NCBI GenBank assembly: GCA_913060495.1
Contig: CAJXRP010000002.1
Span: 124,001 to 188,000 of the forward strand
Source: an uncultured Gammaproteobacteria bacterium
Lineage (GTDB): Bacteria; Pseudomonadota; Gammaproteobacteria; Pseudomonadales; Pseudohongiellaceae
Length of the DNA stretch: 64,000 bases
Direction: 5' to 3'
The notes below the pieces were generated by a model. The model searched no databases. It worked only from the letters and a program-made list of their open reading frames with translations, and was not told the origin of the DNA. Shown piece after piece: positions 46,717-58,443 of this stretch (positions are counted from its first letter, which is position 1; the number at the start of each line of letters is the position of its first letter). The position numbers and the translations under genes were made by a program.

Positions 46717-46796
46717 CAGCTGAGCAGCACTAGCCTATACTGAGCCCTTCGATCATTAGCTAACCTCTCACAGGTTCTCCGTTGTGCCCTTTAGTT

Positions 46797-48770
46797 ATGC
46801 CTGAAGCCTCAGAGAAAAATTCCCGCTCTCTCATATTTGCCACTGCCGGTCACGTCGATCACGGCAAGACCTCATTGGTCGCCAATATCACCGGCACCAA
46901 TACCGATACTCTCGCAGAAGAAAAGAATCGTGGCCTGACCATCGTTCCTGGCTACGCCTACCATCACTTCGCCAGCGTCATCGATGGACAGGAATGTGAC
47001 AACACGCTGGGCTTCGTCGATGTCCCCGGCCATATTGATTTCATCAACAATATGCTGGCCGGCGTGGGAGCGGTTGACGGTGCATTACTAGTTATCGCCG
47101 CCGACGATGGCATCATGCCGCAAACACGAGAGCATCTTGCGATACTCGATCTGTTAGCAGTTTCACGCGGCGCTATAGCGCTGACAAAGACCGATCGCTG
47201 CGAACCCGATCGCGTGCAAACTGTCACCAAAGAAATCAGACAGCTCCAAGCCACCACCAGCCTAAAGGACGCGCCTATCTTTGCCCTCTCGAATGAGAGT
47301 GGTGAGGGCATAAGCGAGCTCAGCGACTATCTGCAGAATCAGTTCAAGGATGACAGCGCCCTAAAGAAGAACAGTAATGAGGACCAGTACTTCCGTTATT
47401 TGATCGACAGAAGCTTCGTCGCCAAGGGAATCGGTACAGTATTAACCGGTAGCGTCCGTGCAGGCTCGATCAAGACAGGCAACAGCCTTAAGCACACCGC
47501 AACTGGCGAACTAACCAAACTGCGAAGCGCTAGATTGGACAAGACTGAGCTTAGCGAAGTCCACAAAGGCCAGCGCGCCGCAATGAATGTAAGCCTGGAC
47601 CACAAGCTTGTAAGCAGAGGTGACTGGCTAGTCGATGAGAAACTCTTTCATCCGGTCAATCGCCTAGATACAACAATAAATTTCATAGACCCGGACTTTA
47701 CATTGCAGAGCAGTGCGCAATACCATCTGCACATCGGCGCCTCTCATCACGTGGTTAATATTAGACACCTGGGAGAGAGCCTATATCAGATAAAATGCCT
47801 CGACCAAATGATTGCCCATCACGACGATCGATTCATCATACGCGACCCAGCATCACAACATACACTAGGCGGCGGCAGCGTTATCGATATTTTTATACCG
47901 AAGCGTAAACGCAGCAGCGAATCACGACTCGCACAACTTAAAGCAATGCAACATGGCGCCTTTGAGTCACTAAAGCAGCTTCTCAAAGCGCAAGTCGACG
48001 GTGTCAAGCTACAAGAATTTTCAAGCTGTCGGAACATCAGCGATATTGCTATAGAAAAATTACTCGCTAATCTAGAACAAGAGAATGTAGGCTTTCACTC
48101 TCTCAACTTGGAAAAATCCTCACTACCCGTACTACTGCATAAAAATTACTATGACGAATACTCCAGCAATATTCTGAGTTTCATCAAGAATTTTCACCAA
48201 CAACAAGCCAATCAACAAGGTATTAGCGAGCCTGCCCTCAGCCACGGGGTCGACTTCGCTAGCTCCCACCTGCTGTTCCACGGCATCCTACAGAGCCTGT
48301 TAGACTCGAACACAATCAAGCGCACCGGCACGCTTCTCCATCTACCTAGCCACAAGGCCTCGCTGAGCGCAGAAGAAGAAGCCTTCCTAGAGCAAGTACG
48401 CCCCTTATTATTGAAGGCAGGCTACGTGCCACCGCGCACACGCGAATTGGTGGAGATGACAAATATTCCACTAATGACACTGGAGCGAATCCTGCGCGAG
48501 TCGGCCAAAGCTGGCACGCTGATCAAGATTGCGGAAAACCGCTACTACCTGCCCGAAACCATCATGACTCTTGCCGGCTTTATAGAACAGTTACTAGAAG
48601 CCGAAAGTGAGGGCAGCGGATTCTCAGTTATTCAGTTTCGCGACGCATCAAAAATAGGGCGAAACCTCTGCATCGAGATCCTCGAATATTTTGACAGCGT
48701 TGGCTTTACACGCAGAGACGGCAATAGCCGCTTCGTTCGCACAAACAAAGAAAACATATTCGGGAAGTAG
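46797..48770 (+). CDS. selB: selenocysteine-specific elongation factor SelB
   Basis: A 657 aa GTPase that brings Sec-tRNA(Sec) to the ribosome at UGA codons with a SECIS. Seen: G1 GHVDHGKTSL at about residues 18-27, G3 DVPGHIDFI, G4 TKTD, then EF-Tu-like domains and a C-terminal string of winged helices (LVEMTNIPLMTLERILRES, FSVIQFRDASKIGRNL). The ATG at 46797 is preferred; TTG at 46782 is in frame but lacks a ribosome-binding site. selA is elsewhere, so the two are not co-regulated by one operon. Confidence 0.95.
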   Translation: MPEASEKNSRSLIFATAGHVDHGKTSLVANITGTNTDTLAEEKNRGLTIVPGYAYHHFASVIDGQECDNTLGFVDVPGHIDFINNMLAGVGAVDGALLVIAADDGIMPQTREHLAILDLLAVSRGAIALTKTDRCEPDRVQTVTKEIRQLQATTSLKDAPIFALSNESGEGISELSDYLQNQFKDDSALKKNSNEDQYFRYLIDRSFVAKGIGTVLTGSVRAGSIKTGNSLKHTATGELTKLRSARLDKTELSEVHKGQRAAMNVSLDHKLVSRGDWLVDEKLFHPVNRLDTTINFIDPDFTLQSSAQYHLHIGASHHVVNIRHLGESLYQIKCLDQMIAHHDDRFIIRDPASQHTLGGGSVIDIFIPKRKRSSESRLAQLKAMQHGAFESLKQLLKAQVDGVKLQEFSSCRNISDIAIEKLLANLEQENVGFHSLNLEKSSLPVLLHKNYYDEYSSNILSFIKNFHQQQANQQGISEPALSHGVDFASSHLLFHGILQSLLDSNTIKRTGTLLHLPSHKASLSAEEEAFLEQVRPLLLKAGYVPPRTRELVEMTNIPLMTLERILRESAKAGTLIKIAENRYYLPETIMTLAGFIEQLLEAESEGSGFSVIQFRDASKIGRNLCIEILEYFDSVGFTRRDGNSRFVRTNKENIFGK

Positions 48771-53069: not shown

Positions 53070-53372
53070 GAAACCAAAACCCTTCTCTCAGGAAAAATCG
53101 AAGCCGCAACAATAGCAAGGAATCCCGGCAAGAAAAAGACGGTTTCCTCATTTGTGGCCAATTCATAGGGACTGGCATCATCAGGACTGGAGCCTACAAC
53201 AGCCGGATTGATAAAAGCCTGCAGCCAGTATCAGGCTTCAGATCGAACTGAGCAGAGACCGGCCTACCTGGTGATGATACGGAATTCCCTTGAAGTTTTG
53301 TGCATGCAGAGTTAATTTGAATTCGTACTATCGCCATCCAACCGTTAATCCGACAATGATTTGGAGAACACG
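53070..53372. other. intergenic region between divergent genes
   Basis: This 303-bp stretch should hold the promoters of the ferredoxin/P450 pair and of the 53373 gene. A small hairpin GCCTG..CAGGC is visible near 53217-53238. No coding frame or RNA gene is seen. Confidence 0.35.
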
Positions 53373-54380
53373 ATGCTTCAACGAATTCTTAGCACACCCT
53401 ACTTTGGCTTTGGCTTACTCCTGCTAGCGCCTGCCCTAATGGCGCAAGATAGCGCTAACCCGCGCACGGAATATGGCCAACCCGACATTCAGGGTACCTA
53501 CACTTTCAGAACACTGACGCCACTGAATCGTCCGCCGGAACTCGCAGATAAAGCGACTCTGACCGCAGCAGAAGTCGCCGAATGGGAACAATTCGAATTA
53601 CGCCGACAGAATCGCGATCTAATTATCGACTCAGTAGGCGGCGCGGGTTATCCACCAGGGGTGATTTCCTACAATAATTTCTGGTACGAGAGAGGCACCA
53701 ATGCCCTAGGCGACTATCGAACATCGCTTATCTACGATCCTCCCAATGGTAGACGCCCACCCTTGAATGCAGCTGGCACGGAACGCCGTGAGGCTCGACA
53801 GCAAATGTTGTTTGAAAGCGCAGGACCTGAAGGTCGCACCACAGTCGATAGATGTCTTACCGGCTTCGTTGCTGGGCCGCCGATTGTCCCCGGTGGTTAC
53901 AATAACAATATGCAAATAGTACAAACCGCGAATCAAATCATGATTCTCAACGAGATGGTGCATTCAGCACGCATCATACCCATCGCAGATGCGCGAGAAA
54001 CGAAACAATTATTATGGGAAGGCAATTCCGTCGCCCACTGGGAGGGTGATACGCTCGTTATAGAAACGAAAGACTTCTATCACCACTACAATGAAGAGGG
54101 TATTTCTGAGCAGGCCAGGGTGACCGAGCGTATAAGTCGCATTAACGAAGAAATGCTGGAATATGACTTCACCGTTGAAGACCCACTGTCATGGGATATT
54201 CCCTGGTCCGCCAAATTTCCTCTGCAGGTTTCGGCCGACCCTGTTTATGAGTATGCCTGTCACGAGGGCAATCATGGCCTAGTAGGCATCTTAGCTGGAT
54301 GGCGACGTTATGAGTCTATGGGCATGAATGGAGACGGCACGCCACTTGGAACAAATGGAACTGTGGCCGCTGATGAGTAG
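53373..54380 (+). CDS. uncharacterised exported protein, paralogue of the 30536 gene
   Basis: A 335 aa protein with signal peptide (cleavage near LMAQD). It shares the PDIQGTY, DRC, YNNNMQIVQ, H-x-ARI, GDTLVIETKDF and YACHEGNHGLVGILAG motifs with the 30536 product. The His- and Cys-bearing C-terminal motif suggests a metal or active site, but no activity is known. The ATG at 53373 follows GGAGAA closely; the TTG at 53361 is upstream of that site. Divergent from the P450 pair. Confidence 0.78.
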   Translation: MLQRILSTPYFGFGLLLLAPALMAQDSANPRTEYGQPDIQGTYTFRTLTPLNRPPELADKATLTAAEVAEWEQFELRRQNRDLIIDSVGGAGYPPGVISYNNFWYERGTNALGDYRTSLIYDPPNGRRPPLNAAGTERREARQQMLFESAGPEGRTTVDRCLTGFVAGPPIVPGGYNNNMQIVQTANQIMILNEMVHSARIIPIADARETKQLLWEGNSVAHWEGDTLVIETKDFYHHYNEEGISEQARVTERISRINEEMLEYDFTVEDPLSWDIPWSAKFPLQVSADPVYEYACHEGNHGLVGILAGWRRYESMGMNGDGTPLGTNGTVAADE

Positions 54381-54441
54381 CTAGGTAGCAGCAATTGTTT
54401 ATCGATTAACAAATTACAAAGTTGGAATTAGCGGAAAAGGC

Positions 54442-54954
54442 ATGGATCTAGAACAGGCAGCATTTGTAGCAGAAGTAATCAGTGGAATAGGCGTTATTTT
54501 ATCTTTAATCTATCTGACATCTGAGGTACGCAGAAGCACAAAACAATCGCAACGGGAGTCTATGGCTTTGTTAACTGCGAAGCGAACCGAAATAATGTAT
54601 CAAGTAACAGACAACCCCGAGTTGGCATCTATTGTTTGGCGCTGTTTGTCGGGAGCCCGAGTTCCCGCTCACCAATGGGCCCGGTACAGTCTTTATCTCA
54701 CCACCACCATGGTGACGATTGAGATGGGGTTTAAGAAAATCTGGGACAACGAGGTAGACGCTGTAACCGCCAAAACCTGGCAAGAGGGAGCGGATTTTTG
54801 GTTTAAGTATCCTGGCATGAGAACGTGGTGGAAAGCCGGTCAAATAGGCTTTTCCGATATGTTCCGCGACTACATCGATGAACGGTTTAAAGTTGTTGAG
54901 GTGGACGGTAGCGATGCTAAGCAGATTGTTGCTTCGTTACCTAGTGCTGATTAG
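54442..54954 (+). CDS. membrane-anchored protein of unknown function
   Basis: A 170 aa protein with one N-terminal membrane segment (EVISGIGVILSLIYLTSEV) directly followed by a positively charged helix, then a cytoplasmic helical domain rich in Trp (FWFKYPGMRTWWKA). This layout is common among unnamed marine proteobacterial proteins. It follows the 53373 gene by 61 bases and may be cotranscribed. Confidence 0.65.
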   Translation: MDLEQAAFVAEVISGIGVILSLIYLTSEVRRSTKQSQRESMALLTAKRTEIMYQVTDNPELASIVWRCLSGARVPAHQWARYSLYLTTTMVTIEMGFKKIWDNEVDAVTAKTWQEGADFWFKYPGMRTWWKAGQIGFSDMFRDYIDERFKVVEVDGSDAKQIVASLPSAD

Positions 54955-55201
54955 ATCCTGCTCTTACCTAGCTAAGAGAAAAAAGTTATTAAACTATAGA
55001 GAATTTGCCAAGCAGCTTAGTTAAACGTAAGTTGAAGGTAGATACAGAAATGGTCTTAGAAATCCAATATTCCAACCTACTTAATTCCATTGATGCAATT
55101 CTCTGTTGTAAGCACTCCGTGAACAAAGGCTGGGAAATTGACATCTAAAGTCGCTTCCATTTCTTGCATATTGAATGCGCCAATTATGTCTTTCAATAAA
55201 G

Positions 55202-55228
55202 CGAGTTGGCGGAGAGGCAGGAGTCGAA
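55202..55228 (-). repeat. partial tRNA-Sec 3'-end copy (att-like repeat, left)
   Basis: 27 bases match the 28 bases at 57462-57489 (3' end of tRNA-Sec and its immediate flank) in direct orientation, with a single one-base deletion. Copies of a tRNA 3' end at a distance from the intact gene are the usual mark of site-specific integration. Confidence 0.8.
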
Positions 55229-55274
55229 TTTTATTTCTATCTTATTGTTTTATAATACTATTTTAGTATAAAAA

Positions 55275-55294
55275 CTCGGTTCGTGTTACATTAG
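55275..55294. repeat. inner direct repeat, left copy
   Basis: CTCGGTTCGTGTTACATTAG recurs as CTCGGATGCGTGTTACATTAG at 57338-57358, just upstream of the integrase stub. It may be an older junction or an integrase arm site. Confidence 0.55.
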
Positions 55295-55344
55295 GCCAAA
55301 GTCAACGGCTTATGCAGCTCCCAAGTCCTACTTCTTGGAAATAG

Positions 55345-55794
55345 CTAATCAATAGCTATCTGAGCTTGATTCTTACCCCTGCGAATACTGTGTGCAAAGT
55401 ACAAACTGACAATGAACAGAAACAATGGCAAACCGACTCGCCCAGCTAGGACCCAATAATCGCTAGCCGTCCTCAGGTAATAAAAATTGATTTGCTCCAT
55501 CCATTGTATGTTGACCATTGATAGAACGAGTACCTGAGCTACAAGGGACATATAAACTAACGAATAGCTTATAACTGCCATCCAGAATTGAGCCTGCGTT
55601 AGCTTATGTCCAACCAAATAACTTGCCGTCAACCAACCAAAGAGTATCGTTATCCATAATTCATAAGCCGATGCAACCATCGCTTCATTTGCGTCGAGAT
55701 GCTCAACAACCTCAGCGGTGGTCAACCCATTATCTGTTTGAGCTGTGGCCAAGGATGAGATTGTGAGTAGCAGCACTAAGATGATTAATCGCAT
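55345..55794 (-). CDS. membrane protein of unknown function inside the selC element
   Basis: A 149 aa protein: signal-like N-terminus (cleavage near ATAQT), then three to four hydrophobic segments and a short basic tail (HSIRRGKNQ). Family not recognised. It diverges from the Sel1-repeat gene and is AT-rich, consistent with cargo of an acquired element. Confidence 0.55.
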   Translation of the reverse strand: MRLIILVLLLTISSLATAQTDNGLTTAEVVEHLDANEAMVASAYELWITILFGWLTASYLVGHKLTQAQFWMAVISYSLVYMSLVAQVLVLSMVNIQWMEQINFYYLRTASDYWVLAGRVGLPLFLFIVSLYFAHSIRRGKNQAQIAID

Positions 55795-55894
55795 GAGTCA
55801 TTCCAAATCAGAAGCCTATTCCCTGAATTCAAGGAATATAATAATTTGGCCTAAGTGTACCTGCCAATGCCTCTTTTTCAAGCATAGGGAGCGT

Positions 55895-56611
55895 ATGTCC
55901 GCGCTAACAAATACCTATATATCCAAGGGAAAGGCTTTAACTACCCTCCTCTTATCGATTATTCAATTGACCCCCGTAAAAATCCAAACTAATCTCTGTG
56001 ACAGCATCCTAATAATAACCATAGGGAGCGGCACTATCGTTACCGTTAATTACTTAATCCCACGGCTACTAACAATATTTTTCGCCATATTCCTATCTTC
56101 CACATCAGCTATGGCTGCCGAAGAGGATATGAGCTTTAAAGCTGTTATGGCTAGGGCTGAACAAGGGGATGCAGCCGCTCAGTCCAACTTAGGCTTTAAG
56201 TACGAGTTCGGAGACGGTGTTTATCAGGATTATGCCGAAGCATATAAGTGGTATCGGTTAGCAGCTGATCAAGGGGATGCAAACGGTCAGTGGAGCTTAG
56301 GCTCTTTTTTCTCCTTCGGAAAAGGTGTTGCTCAGGATTATGCCGAAGCATATAAGTGGTATCGGTTAGCAGCTGAGCAAGGGGATGCAAGCGCTCAGGA
56401 AGAAGTAGGCTCTATGTACTACTTCGAACAAGGTGTTACTCAGAGCCTAATAAAGGCTTATGCATGGTATTCACTAGCAGCAGCTCAGGACCACGAAAGG
56501 GGTCGAACGAATAGAGACATATTGGCAAGATCACTAACGCCAGACCAGCTCTCCCGAGGACAAGAGATTGCCACGCGTTGTTTCAATTCAGACTATAAAG
56601 ACTGTGATTAA
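55895..56611 (+). CDS. Sel1-repeat (SLR) exported protein
   Basis: A Sel1-like repeat protein with about three 36-residue repeats (A-x-x-Y-R-W/K-W-Y-R-L-A-A-x-Q-G-D-A type) and a C-terminal cap with two Cys. With the ATG at 55895 (AGGGAG three bases before) it is 238 aa, but a normal signal peptide (LLTIFFAIFLSSTSAMAAEE) then starts near residue 52. A second AGGGAG stands seven bases before ATC at 56036, which would start directly at that signal peptide. SLR proteins bind partners in the periplasm. Two repeats are almost identical in DNA (56225-56285 and 56333-56393). Confidence 0.7.
   Translation: MSALTNTYISKGKALTTLLLSIIQLTPVKIQTNLCDSILIITIGSGTIVTVNYLIPRLLTIFFAIFLSSTSAMAAEEDMSFKAVMARAEQGDAAAQSNLGFKYEFGDGVYQDYAEAYKWYRLAADQGDANGQWSLGSFFSFGKGVAQDYAEAYKWYRLAAEQGDASAQEEVGSMYYFEQGVTQSLIKAYAWYSLAAAQDHERGRTNRDILARSLTPDQLSRGQEIATRCFNSDYKDCD
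56225..56393 (+). repeat. tandem Sel1 repeat with near-identical DNA
   Basis: 61 bases starting at 56225 recur at 56333 with two mismatches; the period is 108 bases, one Sel1 repeat. Such high DNA identity shows a recent tandem duplication. Confidence 0.85.
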
Positions 56612-56624
56612 CTAGGACGCATCA

Positions 56625-57014
56625 ATTAAAAAACTAACAACACTAATCCTCCTACTCCTATCACCTCTAGTCACAGCGCAAGAGAAACAGATTTGGACTT
56701 GTCAGCAGCTGGCAGGAACACAGCTTATTTGGGAGAACGGCGCTTGGAAACAGGTTAGTGTAGAGCCTACACGTGTTCTACTCAGATTAGGCGGCGAATA
56801 TTCCAGCTATAGAATGTTGGAAGAGGAGAGGCTGCTAGATTGCTCGGAAGCCTTAGATGGGAAAGTTAGTTGTTTAGATTCGCTAGGCTCTAAACTTATA
56901 TATATTGATTCAACCTCTGGCAAGATGGGAAGGTCTACCTTGCTTGGCGCAGTACAGGCTGAAGATAGCAGGAGCGCATTAGCTACCGAAATTTACAACT
57001 GCACTAAGCTCTGA
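56625..57014 (+). CDS. small exported protein with apparent ATT start
   Basis: The open frame gives 129 aa: basic start KK, hydrophobic core and cleavage site (LTTLILLLLSPLVTAQ), then a mature domain of about 110 residues with three or four Cys (WTCQQLAG, LLDCSEA, VSCLDS, YNCTK). The only start that fits is ATT at 56625, with AGGAC seven bases before; the first in-frame ATG (56814) would remove the leader and half the domain. Family not recognised. It follows the Sel1 gene by 13 bases. Confidence 0.6.
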   Translation: MKKLTTLILLLLSPLVTAQEKQIWTCQQLAGTQLIWENGAWKQVSVEPTRVLLRLGGEYSSYRMLEEERLLDCSEALDGKVSCLDSLGSKLIYIDSTSGKMGRSTLLGAVQAEDSRSALATEIYNCTKL

Positions 57015-57069
57015 GCTTCTTGCTTCTAAAACCCGATACTAGCTATGCCCACCCTTTTTGAATTAATTG

Positions 57070-57213
57070 TTATGTGTCAATTAGTTCGTCCTCAAAGACC
57101 CAATACTCTCGCTCTGCTGCGCTATATTCATTTTCTGACATTAGGCCCTCATCAAAGATTGATTTCAACTCTCTTTGTTGAGTAGCAATATCATTAGCTC
57201 CTGAAAGAGCCAC
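57070..57213 (-). pseudogene. SHOCT-like C-terminal fragment
   Basis: A 47-codon minus frame from GTG 57213: after about 14 residues it reads RELKSIFDEGLMSENEY, a SHOCT-type short helical motif. It overlaps the integrase stub in another frame, as if the C-terminal end of another gene was joined to it by deletion. Confidence 0.5.
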
Positions 57214-57325
57214 TGGGCTTAATTTTGAGCTGCAAACCGCCAGGGTCTGACAAGTTGCATTCCTTGTCCTTAGATTTGGCTCTCTTGACCTGTGTGTCGC
57301 CCAAAAGAGCTGCCGTATTGCCCAC
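57194..57325 (-). pseudogene. truncated tyrosine integrase, N-terminal DUF4102 arm-binding domain only
   Basis: A 43-codon frame from GTG 57325 with AGGAG eight bases upstream. It reads LLGDTQVKRAKSKDKE then CNLSDPGGLQLKIKPSGS, the start of the DUF4102 domain that opens P4-type tyrosine integrases. The catalytic domain (R-H-R-Y) is gone: the frame stops right after KPSGS. It points away from the nearby tRNA-Sec gene, 142 bases from its 3' end, the normal place for an integrase of a tRNA-targeted island. Confidence 0.78.
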
Positions 57326-57337
57326 GATTCGACTCCT

Positions 57338-57358
57338 CTCGGATGCGTGTTACATTAG
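57338..57358. repeat. inner direct repeat, right copy
   Basis: CTCGGATGCGTGTTACATTAG, the partner of 55275-55294. It lies 12 bases upstream of the integrase stub's start codon. Confidence 0.55.
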
Positions 57359-57461
57359 TTACTAGATAAGACAAGATGGCACTGGACAACAAAAGACGAA
57401 ATATGTGTTTTTTTATAGTGTTCTAAGAAGTTTAAGATTTTGTTGGGCGCTAAAAGAAAGT

Positions 57462-57489
57462 CGAGTTGGCGGAAGAGGCAGGAGTCGAA
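57462..57489 (-). repeat. att-like repeat in tRNA-Sec 3' end (right)
   Basis: The 3' end of tRNA-Sec plus five flanking bases; its near-identical copy lies at 55202-55228. The intact gene on this side would have been regenerated on insertion. Confidence 0.8.
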
Positions 57490-57562
57490 CCCACCAAGCC
57501 TGTCATTAACAGACTTCACCGGGTTTGAAGTCCGGGCACCCCACCGGGGATGATACTCTTCC
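57467..57562 (-). tRNA. selC: tRNA-Sec (UCA anticodon)
   Basis: 96 bases including encoded CCA. The acceptor GGAAGAG pairs with CTCTTCC, the discriminator is G, the anticodon loop is CTTCAAA (UCA, reading UGA), the variable arm is long (GTGAAGTCTGTTAATGACAG region with an internal hairpin), and the T loop is TTCGACT. The arrangement matches E. coli selC, whose 3' end is a known target of P4-like and phi-R73-type elements. It serves SelA and SelB, both in this window. Confidence 0.95.
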
Positions 57563-57609
57563 GCCGTCGAGTTTAGCATAATCAGTATTGGAGTCACCCT
57601 CCCCAATAC

Positions 57610-58443
57610 TTACGGAGTATCGTTCAGACCCCAGTCATATTTGAGATGACGAATGCGAATGTCATCAGCCAGAAGCTTATTTGTGGTCGCTTCGTCAACG
57701 TTCAACTCAGCCCCATAGGCAGCCAAAAATTCGGCCACCGAGTCGACTCCACCCCAACCCTTCTCAAAATCTTCTTCGTACCAATCGAAGATGCTCGAAA
57801 TATACATGCGCCCATTATCGAAATAGTTACGGCTTCGGTCACTTAAGAACTTTTTCGTGCTGTCCTCCAGTTGCATCTCCAACTTGTCACTCACAAACGC
57901 CTCGCCACGAAGTGCTGGACATCCAATGGCAGCACAATTCACGGCGAAGTGAATCCGAGGCTCATTGTAGAGCCCCCAACCACGGATCATTCCATGTTCG
58001 ATATCATCGAGGGTTACTGGCTCACCGAATAGCTTCGCGAAATTCTGATTCCATGCAGAGGATAAGAAAAAACCGATATCCCTGATGGAATCGATATCGG
58101 GGTATTCCTGCAGAATCACATCCACAGTGTAAGCATTGTAGGCGTTGATCAAGAAGGCTAGCTGAGCTGGCGTGGACCAGCTATCGAAAGTACTGCGCGG
58201 TACTTCGGCAATCCCGGCAAGATAGATCTGCAACTCCCGCCGGTCTGCTGCCATTCCCGAATAATCAAGCTGTGTGGCAACTCCACCATCGATCACTCTT
58301 ACATGTTCTCGAAGCAGACGATCCCAGTCACCGTGATCGAAATCCGCTAGAGCATGAAGTGGAAGCATCAGTAAGATGCCAGCGAATGTTTTTAGCAATG
58401 GATTCAAGTTAATTACCCTATCTGTGTGTGACGACTTTCTCAT
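57610..58443 (-). CDS. DUF547 exported protein
   Basis: A 277 aa protein with a hydrophobic leader (LLKTFAGILLMLPLHALA) after a short basic N-terminus. It shows the DUF547 pattern: LAFLINAYNAYTVDVIL, FGEPVTLDDIEHGMIRG, EPRIHFAVNCAAIGCPAL with its Cys, and WYEEDF near the end. Function of the family unknown; a Cys/His/Asn-type hydrolase fold has been suggested. It starts 48 bases beyond the tRNA-Sec 5' end. Confidence 0.88.
   Translation of the reverse strand: MRKSSHTDRVINLNPLLKTFAGILLMLPLHALADFDHGDWDRLLREHVRVIDGGVATQLDYSGMAADRRELQIYLAGIAEVPRSTFDSWSTPAQLAFLINAYNAYTVDVILQEYPDIDSIRDIGFFLSSAWNQNFAKLFGEPVTLDDIEHGMIRGWGLYNEPRIHFAVNCAAIGCPALRGEAFVSDKLEMQLEDSTKKFLSDRSRNYFDNGRMYISSIFDWYEEDFEKGWGGVDSVAEFLAAYGAELNVDEATTNKLLADDIRIRHLKYDWGLNDTP

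Follow-up and report, generated by a model that had tools for sequence, protein, structure and literature searches.

Mobile DNA frequently lands in the gene for tRNA-Sec (selC), and the question raised by the present locus is what a 2.2-kb stretch beside such a gene represents. We analyzed a window of 64,000 nucleotides (the whole stretch of DNA studied here) within a 241-kb contig of a 3.6-Mb genome, which comprises 45 contigs and is rated 100% complete. The genus of the host consists of marine gammaproteobacteria, chiefly metagenome derived, and the named records closest to the right-flank gene were uncultured Pseudomonadales and Gammaproteobacteria bins, some labelled SAR86, and one Pseudohongiella. 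tRNA genes were called with ARAGORN, domains were assigned with Pfam, and att copies were searched through the whole genome. The genus comparison covered 84 genomes including the host's own; the 83 others all represent other species. With a probability of roughly 0.9, we read the stretch as a P4-type element that integrated at the 3′ end of selC and then decayed to a 2.2-kb remnant. An initial annotation had called it a decayed, selC-targeted P4-type element or island, which proved essentially right and withstood the two checks proposed with it, a comparison with related genomes and a profile search with the stub. Features of the locus are collected in Table 1.

Table 1. Features at and around selC, in window positions
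Feature	Position	Strand	Basis
Left-flank gene, beside selC in G033 and G077	53361-54380	+	Genus comparison
DUF6082-like gene (weak), outside the att pair, inside the variable stretch	54442-54954	+	Pfam E=0.0013, below cut-off
attR core: displaced tRNA 3′-end copy, short of 1 base	55203-55228	-	Repeat alignment
Putative integrase arm site CTAATGTAACACG, far side	55282-55294	-	Exact 13-mer, ~53 bp inside attR
Membrane-type protein, no family match	55345-55794	-	Pfam and phrog searches
Sel1-repeat protein, start inferred	55895-56611	+	PF08238 E=3.6e-25, 3 repeats; 108-bp repeat units
Small Cys-containing protein, signal-peptide-like start	56625-57014	+	Relatives 76-84% identical
Short frame, possibly the end of a different gene fused to the stub by deletion	57070-57213	-	SHOCT E=0.038, below cut-off; weak
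Integrase stub covering an N-terminal portion of the arm-binding domain (PF13356)	57194-57325	-	Pfam, BLAST, position
Putative integrase arm site CTAATGTAACACG, integrase side	57346-57358	-	Exact 13-mer, upstream of the stub
attL core: tRNA 3′ end plus 5 bases past the tRNA end	57463-57489	-	Direct repeat with 55203-55228
tRNA-Sec (selC), integration target, intact	57468-57563	-	ARAGORN; sole tRNA found
DUF547 gene, right flank, syntenic with selC in the genus	57610-58443	-	Pfam, alignments

The selC target and the boundaries of the insert

The att cores lie ~2.2 kb apart in the same orientation and align at 26 of 27 positions, with a longest ungapped exact block of 16 nt; the direct copy of the tRNA-Sec 3′ end that the initial annotation reported is therefore present, short of one base. 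A search of the 3.6-Mb genome with the 22-nt tRNA 3′ end, allowing up to 3 mismatches, returned just these two places, and shuffling 6 kb 200 times never produced a tRNA-end copy within three edits. The insert is thus bounded by a direct repeat of the tRNA 3′ end, as a selC element should be. Its G+C content is 0.40 to 0.46, compared with ~0.50 in the surrounding DNA. A gene for selB (TIGR00475, above cut-off) is located at 46782-48770 (+), ~9 kb from selC, so this tRNA-Sec gene lies near its own elongation factor. Positions 55289-55328 were considered as a multicopy repeat and set aside; elsewhere they were found just at one contig end, in G078.

If the stretch is an island, related genomes should lack it, and none of the 83 other genus genomes searched carried it at selC. 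Alignments to the closest relatives begin at 57463-57469, at the tRNA end, and run rightwards through the DUF547 gene. Two genomes have near-empty sites, in which the left-flank gene is 55 bp (G033) and 180 bp (G077) from selC. Compared with these sites, variable DNA extends past attR to 54381, adding a segment (54381-55202) that the initial annotation had overlooked.

An integrase stub and a pair of putative arm sites

Residues 8 to 40 of the stub match positions 1 to 31 of the 83-position PF13356 profile (Arm-DNA-bind_3, formerly DUF4102) with E=0.0045 and 17.5 bits. With just 31 of the 83 positions present, the score falls short of the curated 27-bit cut-off; position and BLAST also support the identification, and the minus-strand DUF4102 N terminus proposed beside the tRNA stands. 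The stub's nearest relative is an integrase fragment at selC in G040 (75% identity over 40 residues, E 7e-17), and from the tRNA through the stub the DNA of these two loci aligns at 79% over ~370 bp. The stub starts 239 nt from the 5′ end of selC, compared with 251 to 252 nt for the intact integrases of G023, G024, and G049 and for the G040 fragment; both its distance from selC and its orientation are usual for selC integrases. What caused the G040 truncation was not found, and one transposase-like frame after it had no Pfam match.

A complete integrase, such as that of G023, comprises PF13356, a central domain, and PF00589. Similarity of the stub to integrases stops near 57206, leaving PF13356 in part and no catalytic domain, so the element would be a descendant of a P4-type selC element and is no working member of that family. 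The short frame next to it suggests that a deletion fused the start of the integrase to the end of another gene. With full-length relatives as queries, no further integrase pieces were detected in the 16 kb downstream. A profile search of the host genome gave no PF13356 match elsewhere at E≤0.1; this search also overlooked the stub, which means that fragments could escape it but an intact domain would not.

Beyond the features described in the initial annotation, we observed a 13-bp repeat pair, one copy inside each att core. The motif CTAATGTAACACG has two exact copies in the window, in the same orientation, versus 0.04 expected with one mismatch allowed. For related integrases, the spacer separating the gene from the tRNA contains GTAACA repeats, frequently 12 bp from one another. 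Across the order, most of the stub's nearest relatives have such repeats, and these integrases are found beside tmRNA, selC, and Arg or Leu tRNA genes; other PF13356 integrases have different iterated motifs at the spacer position. In two intact islands of the genus, G069:C4 and G037:C16, each end bears the GTAACA motif in the same orientation, and on the far side it lies ~60 to 85 bp inside the core. Lambda-type integrases contact arm-type sites through their N-terminal domain and the core through the C-terminal one (PMC2951348). Considering these domain roles, the layout of the congener islands, and that of an Escherichia coli selC island (see below), we read the two 13-mers as surviving putative arm sites, one per side. 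The locus would then have arm-type repeats inside both att cores, as a P4-type selC element should.

Integrases related to the stub (G069:C4, L161; G037:C16, L162; and L264-L287) are mostly located at tmRNA, with GTAACA repeats before the gene, and an inverted GTAACA copy at the start codon is frequent among them. Upstream of the stub, AGGAGTCGAA at 57329-57341 is an inverted match to the tRNA T-arm and overlaps the ribosome-binding site. It is common to four selC loci (G000, G040, G049, and G070) and did not turn up ahead of the other integrases listed. We make no claim for it as an inverted core, as it coincides with the ribosome-binding site.

Cargo, origin, and rival readings

The three genes between the att cores—those for a membrane-type protein, a Sel1-repeat protein, and a small Cys-containing protein—are as the initial annotation described them. 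The membrane-type protein has one close relative in the genus, which is truncated, and no relative among the viral contigs searched. The Sel1-repeat protein has a hydrophobic leader, as judged by eye. The gene for the small Cys-containing protein has ATT where five relatives have ATG. Across the loci compared (L145-L152, the window included), this gene changes place between species: elsewhere in the genus, it adjoins the left-flank gene (G023, G063, and G078) or lies elsewhere (G073, G075, G077, and G079); it is ~240 bp from a tRNA-Leu gene in G073 and frameshifted in G078. Since its relatives occupy such varied places, it may not belong to the original cargo. Of the frames enclosed by the att sites, none was recognized as a relaxase, coupling, or secretion gene, and on gene content the ancestor could have been a phage satellite as readily as an integrative and conjugative element (ICE) or an integrative and mobilizable element (IME).

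An origin consistent with these features can be outlined as follows. An element with a P4-type (PF13356) tyrosine integrase would have inserted into the 3′ end of selC by site-specific recombination, the incoming copy of the tRNA end restoring selC and the displaced copy becoming attR, 2.2 kb away. Its integrase gene, oriented away from selC, would have begun ~240 to 250 bp from the selC 5′ end. This gene was probably later truncated past about codon 40, with the likely loss of further element genes (the order of losses is our supposition). The outcome would be three small genes between two att ends, each end with a core and a putative arm site. As the rest of the genome yielded no P4-type integrase, the element has probably become immobile and fixed in place.

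The variable DNA left of attR raises the possibility of two tandem elements: a younger one at 55229-57467 and, at 54381-55202, an older remnant that includes the DUF6082-like gene. Such an arrangement would account for the extra DNA starting at 54381 relative to the empty sites, and a tRNA-end-like GCGGAAAAGGC at 54431 matches at 10 of 11 bases; moreover, decayed elements commonly have others accreted in tandem beside them (PMC5704250). However, GCGGAAAAGGC coincides with the start of the DUF6082-like gene and its ribosome-binding region. The leaders of this gene's relatives are purine-rich too, and chance alone would yield 1.87 matches per window to a pattern based on GCGGAAAAGGC if 3 mismatches are tolerated. 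Relatives of the DUF6082-like gene occur near the left-flank gene in G073 and in other places in G019 and G031. We regard the older remnant as unlikely, though worth bearing in mind.

Two further readings give the surviving parts a function. The 2.2-kb unit might be a non-autonomous mini-island that persists through its retained cores and arm sites and is excised or re-inserted in trans by visiting selC-targeting P4-type integrases. Its ends look complete, with both cores and one putative arm site per side; the genus commonly has related integrases at selC; and elements retaining attL and attR without an integrase, termed cis-mobilizable elements (CIMEs), are a described class (PMC5704250). 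Yet the host genome has no detected PF13356 integrase, no second genome has the unit, the far core is short of a base, and the integrase side carries a single full arm motif, compared with the usual two in relatives, which together make such mobility quite improbable. The stub itself could still function as a small protein: its arm-binding domain, on its own, would sit on arm sites and keep incoming elements from recombining. Its frame is open and its start region is kept, integrase starts persist at selC in several genomes, and it also matches phrog_3423 (E=7.5e-9), a family of 157 positions with no function assigned in PHROG. But the stub retains under half of the domain (31 of 83 positions), the break points vary among genomes, and a piece surviving beside an essential-type tRNA end is expected from chance deletion; a blocking role is very hard to credit. 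A decayed P4-type element thus remains the preferred reading.

selC as an integration site in the genus and likeness to known systems

Intact P4-type integrases follow selC in G023, G024, and G049, and broken ones do so in G000, G040, G047, G069, and G070. A second, unrelated integrase family (DUF6538 plus PF00589) is also found at selC: it is long in G073 (L058, 107-1810) and G035, but its matching part is down to ~44 residues in G030 and ~75 in G015, where just the N-terminal start is kept. The G030 locus (L062) is an integrase-less island with a stub of the DUF6538 integrase and a far copy of the selC 3′ end ~7.6 kb away, with one mismatch. Integrase pieces in G065 and G018 were not counted as stubs, as their contigs end inside the gene. 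Since selC, with selB nearby, is presumably kept by selection, the tRNA-proximal start of an integrase is the piece that would be expected to survive. In this marine genus, selC is therefore a recurrent integration site for at least two integrase families and has repeatedly been left with integrase stubs. For the stub's integrase group, the GTAACA pair may serve as a practical marker of the true far end of an island, even after integrase loss. What the locus adds is the pair of putative arm sites and the evidence for selC as a hot spot; otherwise, it is ordinary genome decay.

By the make-up of its ends and content, the locus is a decayed tRNA-targeted island of a known kind, CIME-like if descent from an ICE or IME is left aside. 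CIMEs keep attL and attR, have lost the integrase, and derive from ICEs or IMEs (PMC5704250); mobilization in cis, once they have accreted with an incoming element, also characterizes the class. The element resembles them in having retained attL and attR, lost its integration genes, and come, as we read it, from a larger integrative element; it differs in that no conjugation or mobilization gene is left to tie it to an ICE or IME and in that an integrase stub remains.

The P4-type (CP4-like) selC islands of E. coli, such as GIselC17584/1 (PMC6174562), share the target and the start of the att core, TTCGACTCCTG, as well as the PF13356 class of integrase reading away from the tRNA. In a published E. 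coli selC island, TTCGACTCCTGTGATC occurs at 299 and 48,813 and a GGGGGTA-type repeat occurs at 433 and 48,737 (PMC6174562), so that there, as here, a core is accompanied by a second, inner repeat pair at similar distances. The inner motif is GGGGGTA in the E. coli islands and GTAACA in the element. The former span tens of kilobases and have integrases and known cargo, whereas the latter is 2.2 kb long, has a stub only, and resides in a marine gammaproteobacterium. The tmRNA islands G069:C4 and G037:C16 differ in having an intact integrase, ssrA as the target, and att cores ~9.6 and ~17 kb apart, respectively, but are like the element in the PF13356 integrase beside an RNA gene and in GTAACA motifs at both ends, with the same orientation and similar distances to the cores.
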